In this document: positions 32,523-35,845 of the stretch, piece after piece
Position numbering within the stretch: the first letter of the stretch is position 1
Layout of the letters: every line of letters begins with the position of its first letter
NCBI GenBank assembly: GCA_016200145.1
Contig: JACQFH010000260.1
Coordinates: 1 to 35,845 of the forward strand
Length of the DNA stretch: 35,845 bases
Reading direction: 5' to 3'
Source: Planctomycetia bacterium
GTDB lineage: Bacteria > Planctomycetota > Planctomycetia > Planctomycetales > Planctomycetaceae
The notes under the pieces: model-generated
What the model saw: the letters and a program-made list of their open reading frames with translations, nothing else
Databases searched by the model: none
Told to the model about the DNA's origin: nothing
Program-made: the position numbers and the translations under genes

Positions 32523-34448
32523 GTGTCCGACAAGCAGGAATTCACGTTTCAAACCGAGATCAAGCAACTTCTGCACATCCTCTCGCACTCACTCTACCAG
32601 AACCCCGAAATCGCTCTGCGCGAACTGATTTCAAACGCGTCGGATTCGCTGAACAAGTTGCGACACATCCGCCTGACCGACGAGAAACACCGCGGCGACG
32701 ACGCGCTCGAGATTACCCTCGAGCCCGACAAAGACGCCAAGATGCTCGTGATCCGCGACACCGGGCTCGGACTGACACATGACGAGCTCGTCGAAAACCT
32801 GGGCACCATCGCGCACAGCGGTTCGAAAGACTTCCTGCGGAGCCTGGCTTCGTCGGCGAAGGCCGGAGGCGGCGAGGCCGACCTGTCGCTGATCGGGCAG
32901 TTCGGCGTCGGTTTCTATTCCGCTTTCATGCTCGCAGACAAAGTTGAAGTCGTCACGCGCAGTTACCGCGAAGACAAAGGCTGGCGCTGGGAGTCCGACG
33001 GCTCGGGCCGCTTCACCATCACGCCGGCTGAAGGGGACGTGCCCCGCGGGGCCCAGATTCGATTGCACCTGAAGGAAGACCGCGAAGACTATCTCGAACC
33101 GCACCGGCTGAAGTCCATCGTCCGCAAGTATTCGACGTTCGTCCCCTTCCCGATCCGCCTGGCCGATGAAACGCTCAACGAGCAGAAGCCGATCTGGGTC
33201 GAGCCGAAGAACCAGGTGACCGACGAGCAGCACGCCGCGTTCTACCAGTGGCTGACTCACCGAACCGACGAGAAGCCGCTGTGGCGCTTGCAGCTCTCGA
33301 GCGATTCGCCGATCCAGTTTCATTCGATATTATACTGCCCGCCGTCGAATTTCGAACTGCTGGGCTTCGGCGCGATCGAGCACGGCGTGAACCTGTGCGC
33401 GAAGCGGGTGCTCGTGCAGGACGACTGCCGCGACTTGCTCCCCGATTACCTGCGGTTCCTGTACGGCGTCGTCGATTCGGCCGACCTGCCCCTGAACGTG
33501 TCGCGCGAGACGCTGCAGGACCACAAGCTGCTTCCCAAGTTGAAACGGGTGCTGACGAAAAAGGTACTCGATCACCTGGCAACGCTGGCGGACGAGGAAA
33601 GCGGTACGTTCACGACGTTCTACCAGCAGTTCGGCCCGATCCTGCGCACGGGGATCGGTCACGATTTCGAGAACCGCGAGCGCATCGCCAAGCTGATGCG
33701 GTTCCACTCGACGTTTACCGCGGCCGAAAGCCAGATCGTCGGAGCCGGCCCGAAACCGACCGACCCCACGGTTTCGCTCGACGCGTACCTCAAGCGGGCC
33801 GCGGAAGGTCAGACGCAGATCTATTATCTGAGCGGGCCCGACCTGGCGGCCCTGTCGCGGCATCCGCACCTCGAAGCGTTTCGCAAGCGGAACCTGGAGG
33901 TTCTGTTCCTGAACGACCCGATCGACGAGTTCGCGCTCACTCAGCTCCACCAGTACGAACAGAAGCAATTGATTTCGATCGACTCGGCCGACGTCAAGTT
34001 TCCGGATTCGACGAAACCGGCCGACGAAGCCGAGCGCGCGGCGGCCCCCAAAAATTTCACGCGCGTCGTGGAACTGTTTCGCGGGGCGCTCGACGGCAAA
34101 GCGGCCGACGTGCGCGAATCGTCGCGGCTGACCGACAGCCCGTGCTGCCTGGTCAACGTGCAGGGGACGATGAGCAGCCAGTTGCAGAACGTGATGCGGC
34201 ACACGATGAAGGAATTCGAGGCGCCCAAGCGGGTCCTGGAATTGAACCCACACGCGCCGCTCGTCGCGCGCCTGTGCGAGCTGGCCGCTAACGCCGACAA
34301 CGATGACTTCATCCGCGACTGCGGCCGCCAACTGTACGCCAACGCCCAGATCCTCGACGGCCTCGTGCCCGACGTCGAAGAGACGACCAGCCGCACCCTG
34401 AAATTCATGGAAGAACTGTCGCGCACCCGCTCGGCGATCGTCACGTAG
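32523..34448 (+). CDS. htpG: Molecular chaperone HtpG (Hsp90)
   Basis: 641 aa from GTG 32523 with GGAG at 32513-32516. The GHKL ATPase domain has the Hsp90 blocks: LYQNPEIALRELISNASDSL (Glu34, Asn38), RDTGLGLTHDELVENLGTIA and GQFGVGFYSAFMLADKVEV. The middle domain includes PLNVSRETLQDHK, and the C-terminal dimerisation domain ends near FMEELSRTR. The length fits bacterial HtpG. It is an ATP-driven dimeric chaperone in the cytoplasm. It is monocistronic, followed by two hairpins. Confidence 0.96.
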   Translation: MSDKQEFTFQTEIKQLLHILSHSLYQNPEIALRELISNASDSLNKLRHIRLTDEKHRGDDALEITLEPDKDAKMLVIRDTGLGLTHDELVENLGTIAHSGSKDFLRSLASSAKAGGGEADLSLIGQFGVGFYSAFMLADKVEVVTRSYREDKGWRWESDGSGRFTITPAEGDVPRGAQIRLHLKEDREDYLEPHRLKSIVRKYSTFVPFPIRLADETLNEQKPIWVEPKNQVTDEQHAAFYQWLTHRTDEKPLWRLQLSSDSPIQFHSILYCPPSNFELLGFGAIEHGVNLCAKRVLVQDDCRDLLPDYLRFLYGVVDSADLPLNVSRETLQDHKLLPKLKRVLTKKVLDHLATLADEESGTFTTFYQQFGPILRTGIGHDFENRERIAKLMRFHSTFTAAESQIVGAGPKPTDPTVSLDAYLKRAAEGQTQIYYLSGPDLAALSRHPHLEAFRKRNLEVLFLNDPIDEFALTQLHQYEQKQLISIDSADVKFPDSTKPADEAERAAAPKNFTRVVELFRGALDGKAADVRESSRLTDSPCCLVNVQGTMSSQLQNVMRHTMKEFEAPKRVLELNPHAPLVARLCELAANADNDDFIRDCGRQLYANAQILDGLVPDVEETTSRTLKFMEELSRTRSAIVT

Positions 34449-34489
34449 TCGTCTCCGCCGAGACGAGACTCTGTCGAAAGCAAAAGACC

Positions 34490-34510
34490 CCTGCCGGTTC
34501 ATCCGGCAGG
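34490..34510 (+). terminator. Hairpin 1 after htpG
   Basis: CCTGCCGG (34490-34497), loop TTCAT, CCGGCAGG (34503-34510). Perfect 8-bp stem 42 bp after the htpG stop. A near-copy with the loop in the opposite sense follows at 34556. Confidence 0.6.
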
Positions 34511-34555
34511 TGAATAAGTTTGCGATGCTAGACGGCAGACACCGGCGCTCAATAA

Positions 34556-34584
34556 GACCCCTGCCGGATGAACCGGCAGGGGTC
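34556..34584 (+). terminator. Hairpin 2 after htpG
   Basis: GACCCCTGCCGG (34556-34567), loop ATGAA, CCGGCAGGGGTC (34573-34584): a perfect 12-bp stem. The loop is the reverse complement of hairpin 1's TTCAT, so the two are inverted copies. Together they separate htpG from the gene at 34733. Confidence 0.65.
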
Positions 34585-34732
34585 GAGCCACGCGAAGTTC
34601 ACGTGTCCAGTGACGGATTCTGTTTGCAATCCTGCCTCCCATCAGCGATGCTGATGGCGTGTAGTGGCGGAAGTTTGCCGGGACGGGCACCGGCACAGCG
34701 CGTCATTCTGAAGGCCGTGCGGAGGATTTCCA

Positions 34733-35008
34733 ATGGACAATTCTTCTCCGTTCGAACGCGATGTGCTCCTCAAGGGGGAGCTCGTGATCATCGTGCGCGG
34801 CCGCCGCGACGGCCGGCCGCGCGCGGGGCAGCGCGTCGTCGTTTCTGCCTGCGGGTTCGTGTGAGGCGGCACGTCGGCCGTCACAGGTTGTGACGGGTCC
34901 GCCATTCTGGAAGCGCCGCTGGGCAAGGTCGAGATCCAGGTCGGGTCGATCCGCGAAGAATCCTGGATCGCCGTCGATTCGCAAACGGTCGTCGAGATCG
35001 ACTGCTGA
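34733..35008 (+). CDS. Candidate selenoprotein: 91-codon gene with in-frame TGA (Sec44)
   Basis: ATG 34733 follows a strong ribosome binding site GGAGGA (34721-34726). The frame runs 43 codons to TGA at 34862-34864, then stays open 47 more codons to a second TGA at 35006-35008. Codons after the first TGA keep the high G/C third-position bias, so they look translated. The product would be MDNSSPFERDVLLKGELVII..., with CGFV-Sec-GGTSAVTGCDGSA around position 44 (Cys40, Sec44, Cys53) and a final EIDC (Cys91). A SECIS-like stem-loop starts directly after the TGA. The second half (TSAVTGCDGSAILEAPLGKV) resembles carboxypeptidase-regulatory-like beta-sandwich proteins; I do not recognise a family. 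Alternatives are a nonsense mutation or a 43-aa peptide. Whether the genome encodes SelA, SelB, SelC and SelD is not visible here. Confidence 0.6.
34862..34903 (+). promoter_or_regulatory. Bacterial SECIS-like element following in-frame UGA
   Basis: Directly after TGA 34862-34864 there is a lower stem GGCGG (34865-34869)/CCGCC (34899-34903) and a perfect upper stem CCGTCAC (34878-34884)/GTGACGG (34890-34896), capped by AGGTT. The loop begins about 20 nt after the UGA and has G within its first two bases. This fits the general bSECIS rules (loop 16-37 nt from UGA, short loop with early G), and the GGU is like that of the E. coli fdhF loop bound by SelB. Confidence 0.6.
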
Positions 35009-35095
35009 ATTGAGTCTGCTGGCCCGTGCATTCCCAGGCAAATCCGGCTGGAAGCGCGCATAATGGCGGCACGCTTGTCGCCTTGTCCCATGGAG

Positions 35096-35115
35096 GTCAG
35101 CCTTTCCAGGCTGAC
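35096..35115 (+). terminator. Hairpin downstream of the candidate selenoprotein gene
   Basis: GTCAGCCT (35096-35103), loop TTCC, AGGCTGAC (35108-35115): a perfect 8-bp stem in the 163-bp gap before the kinase gene. A probable terminator or repeat unit; no T-tract. Confidence 0.5.
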
Positions 35116-35171
35116 GCATTGCGACTCTTCCAAACACGAACAGCCTCTCAGCCAGCATCCCGACCCTTCCC

Positions 35172-35845
35172 ATGCCCGACAGTCCTGCTGGCCCAACGTC
35201 CGCTCGTCAGGCGAAACTGGAACAGATTCTGGCCGACTACCTGCACTCGGTCGAACGCGGCGATCCACTCGACCGGCAGTCGCTGCTGGCGGCGCATCCG
35301 GACCTGGCCGCCGACCTCACGTCGTTCTTCCGCAATCACGATGCGATCGGCCGGCTGGCCGAACCGCTGAACGCGGCGGTCGACGCACCAACCCTGCTGG
35401 GGATGTCGGACACGCACTCCGCGCAGGCTGGCCAGACAATTCGCTACTTCGGCGATTACGAGCTGCTCGATGAAATCGCCCGCGGCGGCATGGGAGTCGT
35501 CTTCAAAGCCCGGCAAGTCAACCTGAACCGGGTCGTGGCCCTGAAGATGATCCTGGCGGGCCAACTGGCGCACGACAGCGACGTCAAACGGTTCTACGCC
35601 GAGGCCGAAGCAGCGGCGAACCTCGACCACCCGGGCATCGTTCCGATCTTCGAAATCGGCCAGCACGACGGCCAGCACTACTTTTCGATGGCGTTCGTCG
35701 AAGGGGAAAGCCTGGCACGGAAAGTCGCCAACGGTCCGTTACCACCGCGGGAAGCGGCCCAGCTCGTGAAGCAGGTGGCCGAGGCGGTCGATTATGCGCA
35801 CGCGAAAGGGATCATCCATCGCGATCTGAAACCGGCGAACGTGCT
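35172..35845 (+). CDS. Ser/Thr protein kinase, planctomycetal type (3' end outside window)
   Basis: 224 residues visible from ATG 35172; the gene runs off the right edge. A short N-terminal region (about 1-90; LEQILADYLHSVERGDPLDRQ and AAHPDLAADLTSFF) is the helical segment seen before many planctomycete kinases. The kinase domain starts at YELLDEIARGGMGVVFKARQ (the first Gly of the loop is Ala103). It has the ATP-anchoring Lys125 in VALKMI, a probable Glu of helix C (YAEAEAAANLDHPGIV), hinge FVEGESL, and the catalytic loop HRDLKPAN (His216, Asp218, Lys220) at the very end. Planctomycetes encode many such kinases, often with C-terminal WD40 or TPR sensors. No ribosome binding site is evident. 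Confidence 0.92.
   Translation, partial: MPDSPAGPTSARQAKLEQILADYLHSVERGDPLDRQSLLAAHPDLAADLTSFFRNHDAIGRLAEPLNAAVDAPTLLGMSDTHSAQAGQTIRYFGDYELLDEIARGGMGVVFKARQVNLNRVVALKMILAGQLAHDSDVKRFYAEAEAAANLDHPGIVPIFEIGQHDGQHYFSMAFVEGESLARKVANGPLPPREAAQLVKQVAEAVDYAHAKGIIHRDLKPANV

Follow-up and report, generated by a model that had tools for sequence, protein, structure and literature searches.

Can a TGA in the middle of a short bacterial frame be read as selenocysteine (Sec), or does the gene simply end there? The question was raised by a 91-codon frame on contig JACQFH010000260.1 of a Planctomycetia bacterium, within a stretch of 35,845 nucleotides that is referred to here as the window. The frame starts with ATG at 34733 and has TGA as codon 44, after which 47 sense codons follow before a second TGA at 35006-35008. 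The features of the gene are as follows.

34733..35008, + strand: probable selenoprotein gene of 91 amino acids, with UGA codon 44 as Sec and TGA as final stop (from frame, codon bias and the homolog G439:C226 with TGA at the same codon)
34721..34725, + strand: Shine-Dalgarno-like GGAGG, 7 nt upstream of the ATG (from sequence)
34862..34864, + strand: probable recoded UGA, Sec44 (TGA kept in a distant homolog; SelA, SelB and SelD in the genome)
34850..34867, + strand: codons of the C-G-F-V-U-G core, C40 to G45 (from alignment; both members identical save for V/T at residue 43)

An earlier note on this DNA had described a frame with a strong ribosome binding site, an in-frame TGA at codon 44 and 47 further codons with the same third-position GC bias. 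The positions of the GGAGG, the ATG and the TGA were confirmed. GC contents at the three codon positions were 0.74/0.47/0.84 upstream of the TGA and 0.64/0.49/0.81 downstream of it, so that the third-position bias indeed continues past the TGA, and the neighbouring upstream htpG gene had 0.64/0.39/0.84 for comparison. By codon usage, the annotated frame ranked first of the six frames on either side of the TGA. The gene stands isolated, with htpG (32523-34448) before it and a Ser/Thr kinase gene from 35172 onward after it, both neighbours being named from reading the translations.

The simplest alternative is that the UGA is a real stop, leaving a 43-residue peptide, or that the gene is decaying, a pseudogene produced by a nonsense mutation or a sequencing error. 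The sequence comes from a single MAG that may contain an error, and the gene is rare, with no ortholog in a same-genus genome. However, coding-like composition persists past the TGA, and one clear homolog turned up among 392 genomes sampled throughout the phylum (G439:C226:27765-28019; record CALEHF010000226.1, identified by a scan of a GTDB-based collection with a pattern from the two-member alignment). It lies in a distant genome of another class, among different gene neighbours (EgtB-like and others), and shares 39% identity with the window protein over residues 5-89 (E 2.7e-16), with a single TGA inside the aligned region. This TGA aligns exactly to codon 44, without gaps around it: VSACGFV-UGA-GGTS in the window and FKSCGFT-UGA-GAHQ in the homolog. 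The two ATG starts fall at the same end of the alignment, and the lengths differ by one residue.

The 47 residues after the TGA were also compared alone, and 17 of them (36%) were identical. This half scored 88 against a shuffle mean of 20.7 (sd 4.2), none of 3000 shuffles did as well, and the +0/+0 pair of reading frames scored far above all other pairs. The two genes therefore present an in-frame UGA with coding sequence conserved on both sides. The earlier note had listed two outcomes that would speak against a selenoprotein, namely homologs not conserved across the TGA and homologs all ending at it; instead, the homolog shares the position of the TGA, and its similarity extends over the 47 residues that follow. 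Independent decay at one and the same codon in two distant lineages, with the sequence beyond it kept, is not a credible account of these alignments. A stop or a decaying gene is thus largely refuted already, and we consider it very improbable.

Residues invariant in both members include C40, G41, F42, U44 and G45. The note's CxxxU motif is therefore conserved at C40 and U44, but the second Cys to which it drew attention, C53, is not conserved in the homolog, and neither is the terminal C91.

A hairpin follows the UGA directly.

34865..34903, + strand: bSECIS-like hairpin (from folding; the homolog shares spacing, stem length and loop size)
34865-34869/34899-34903, + strand: lower stem GGCGG/CCGCC, 5 bp (from folding)
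34878-34885/34889-34896, + strand: upper stem CCGTCACA/TGTGACGG, 8 bp, or 7 bp with an AGGUU loop (from folding)
34886-34888, + strand: apical loop GGU, beginning 21 nt past the UGA (from folding)

Folding of the 41 nt 3' of the TGA gave a minimum free energy (MFE) of -21.7 kcal/mol (z -2.6 against dinucleotide shuffles). The published bSECIS model allows a loop of 3-9 nt, a stem of 4-16 bp, a spacing of 16-37 nt and an MFE of -7.5 or lower (PMC13188914), and as applied here it also requires a G within the first two loop positions. Both members satisfied it with an 8-bp stem, a 3-nt loop and a spacing of 21 nt, at -21.7 kcal/mol for the window and -12.2 kcal/mol for the homolog, a combination that is not rare by chance. 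The upper stem of the homolog contains one bulge and its loop is GAU. The first loop position is G in both hairpins, and the innermost pair is A-U in the window and G-C in the homolog.

It should be noted that this genome is GC-rich and that 20% of 2052 TGAs in its sequences satisfied the loose model. The share fell to 8% when an upper stem of at least 7 bp was required in addition, and to 0.7% with such a stem and an MFE of -20 or lower. The folding energy of the window hairpin was reached by 4% of synonymous recodings, and that of the homolog was ordinary for its codons, with 36% of recodings equally stable. The window hairpin agrees with SelB-dependent recoding but is only supportive and not decisive alone, because of the high background rate and because 4% of synonymous recodings are as stable. 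Hairpin stability as proof of Sec insertion was rejected for the same background rate. The bSECIS geometry that had been claimed for this locus does match the published model; however, it is weaker evidence than was claimed.

The genome of the window encodes SelA (448 bits) and SelD (388 bits). Its selB is split over two contig ends, the GTPase part being cut off where contig C161 ends and the remainder, with the beta-barrel and winged-helix domains, starting contig C726; the assembly is a draft of 742 contigs and 96% complete. The Sec cluster, fragmented in this assembly (G000), lies on one contig in the same-genus genome G008, where SelB, SelA and SelD are clustered. The homolog's genome encodes a full SelB above the curated cut-off. 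SelA was not among the matches listed for this 91%-complete draft in the phylum search, and it is present in many relatives within the same class. In the window's genome, no tRNA-Sec scored above the Rfam gathering threshold among the 150 of 1355 candidates scored, and none was found near the Sec genes. RF01852 matches of 35-43 bits at the loci checked were ordinary Arg, Leu, Ser, Thr, Tyr and Gly tRNAs. Of the four genes selA, selB, selC and selD that the note had proposed to look for, three products were thus found, SelB in two pieces, but the tRNA was not found among the candidates scored; the absence of Sec machinery, named there as a further outcome against a selenoprotein, was not what the genome showed.

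These results bear on a second alternative, in which the UGA is read through as another residue, such as Trp or Cys by a near-cognate tRNA, without Sec machinery, and the hairpin is coincidental or a generic stimulator of readthrough. The frequency of loose bSECIS hairpins after TGAs of this genome and the missing tRNA-Sec would fit such a case. Yet the window's genome encodes SelA, SelB and SelD, that of the homolog encodes SelB, and both hairpins are of SelB type in geometry and equal in spacing. Moreover, conserved readthrough of UGA without Sec in a small bacterial domain is, to our knowledge, rare, which also counts against it. We regard this alternative as improbable, barely less so than a stop.

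The window gene is therefore read as a genuine selenoprotein of a new, rare family in Planctomycetota, the phylum indicated by gene content, made by standard SelB/bSECIS recoding, with a probability of roughly 0.88 from sequence comparison. This reading rests on the homolog that keeps both the TGA and the similarity downstream of it, rather than on the hairpin alone. SelB, loaded with Sec-tRNA-Sec, would bind the hairpin 3' of codon 44, and the UGA would be read as selenocysteine instead of stop, as suggested by conservation of the frame, by the geometry of the hairpin and by the presence of the machinery. Cys40 and Sec44 may then form the active pair of the conserved CGFxU motif; by analogy with CxxU families, their chemistry would be of the thiol/selenol redox type and pass through a selenenylsulfide.

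Such a redox role is the most likely job of the C40/U44 pair, at about even odds, and binding of a metal or metalloid by the two residues, in place of redox catalysis, comes second. The scaffold around the pair is probably a beta-sandwich and not a thioredoxin fold, and several known selenoprotein families are metal-related (PMC13188914), both of which speak for metal binding. However, the two members share no conserved His or further Cys near the motif, and no metal genes were noted beside either gene, so that we consider metal binding possible but rather unlikely.

The fold of the product was approached by profile and structure comparison. The window protein had no Pfam or NCBIfam match, and the homolog matched bMG3 (PF11974; E 8.5e-4) and Big_1 (PF02369; E 2e-3), both below the curated cut-offs. 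A profile of the two members aligned with four carboxypeptidase-regulatory-like domains at 96.8% probability (hhalign), a value that is partly circular since the domains had been picked by similarity. PF13620 (CarboxypepD_reg) is matched by three of the four, in one case above cut-off. The remaining one forms the last domain of a 547-residue frame in the homolog's genome (L119 1400-1612, G439:C63); it lacks both Cys and Sec at the motif and is a possible Sec-less relative there. An AlphaFold model from the two sequences was all-beta at low confidence (pLDDT 54) and gave nothing significant in Foldseek, and the single-sequence prediction (pLDDT 34.5) was too low to use. Given the weak likeness of CarboxypepD_reg, Big_1 and bMG3 beta-sandwich domains over its length, the product is probably small and all-beta, a relative of the carboxypeptidase-regulatory-like or bacterial Ig-like domains, and we treat the beta-sandwich assignment as a lean, not a result. 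The beta-sandwich-domain matches inspected lack the CGFxU motif, unlike the new protein. It is probably cytoplasmic, because no N-terminal hydrophobic signal was evident on reading the protein.

The family is known from two members only, the window gene and its homolog. No further homolog was found in the host's family, of which 150 and later 170 genomes were searched, or among the plasmids, phages and viral contigs searched. The weak genome-search matches, when translated, were mostly chance reading frames, with the exception of a few carboxypeptidase-regulatory-like domains. In a scan of ~85,000 species, exact peptides that had Cys in place of Sec matched nothing, and the pattern from the two-member alignment matched only the homolog's own record. 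The earlier note had suggested homologs with Cys (TGC or TGT) at position 44, and none was found in the genome, phylum and species-wide searches, which thus give no support to a Sec/Cys exchange.

A 2026 catalogue lists 119 prokaryotic selenoprotein families and subfamilies (PMC13188914, Table 1), among which neither a CxxxU motif nor any carboxypeptidase-regulatory or Ig-like domain is listed. The catalogued proteins likewise have a UGA followed by a bSECIS-type hairpin, and Cys near Sec, as in CxxU families (PMC13188914). A matching report was not found in the literature searched, a scope that left out most subscription journals and preprints. The recoding mechanism is of a known kind, and the selenoprotein family appears new. 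With it, the bacterial selenoproteome would come to include a small domain whose fold is probably not that of thioredoxin.

Glycine reductase selenoprotein A (GrdA) is named as a selenoprotein that lacks Cys homologs (PMC12013277); it has a CxxU motif and belongs to a different family, and the window protein shows no sequence match to it. According to its authors, deep-Sep may overlook selenoproteins that have no Cys homologs (PMC12013277). We tentatively suggest, at somewhat less than even odds, that the new family has no Cys homologs at all, Sec having arisen in a loop of a beta-sandwich whose relatives carry neither Cys nor Sec there, with CGFxU as the putative active site. Pipelines that need homologs with known Sec or with Cys would overlook a family of this origin, and if Cys homologs are truly absent it would be one of those selenoproteins that present predictors discard by design. 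Annotation pipelines would in any case end the gene at the UGA, which makes the family easily overlooked in databases.

Two stretches beside the gene have copies elsewhere. A palindromic element of ~100 bp, GACCCCTGCCGGTTCATCCGGCAGG ... CCTGCCGGATGAACCGGCAGGGGTC, lies between htpG and the selenoprotein gene (window 34486-34584); at least seven further contigs of the genome carry near-copies (~79-84% identical), and G008 and G014 carry partial ones. From its sequence and distribution it would be classed as an interspersed REP- or MITE-like repeat. On the other side, window 35050-35193, which takes in the leader of the Ser/Thr kinase gene and its first codons, has an 80% identical copy at G000:C432:820-963, possibly a duplicated kinase or a shared leader.
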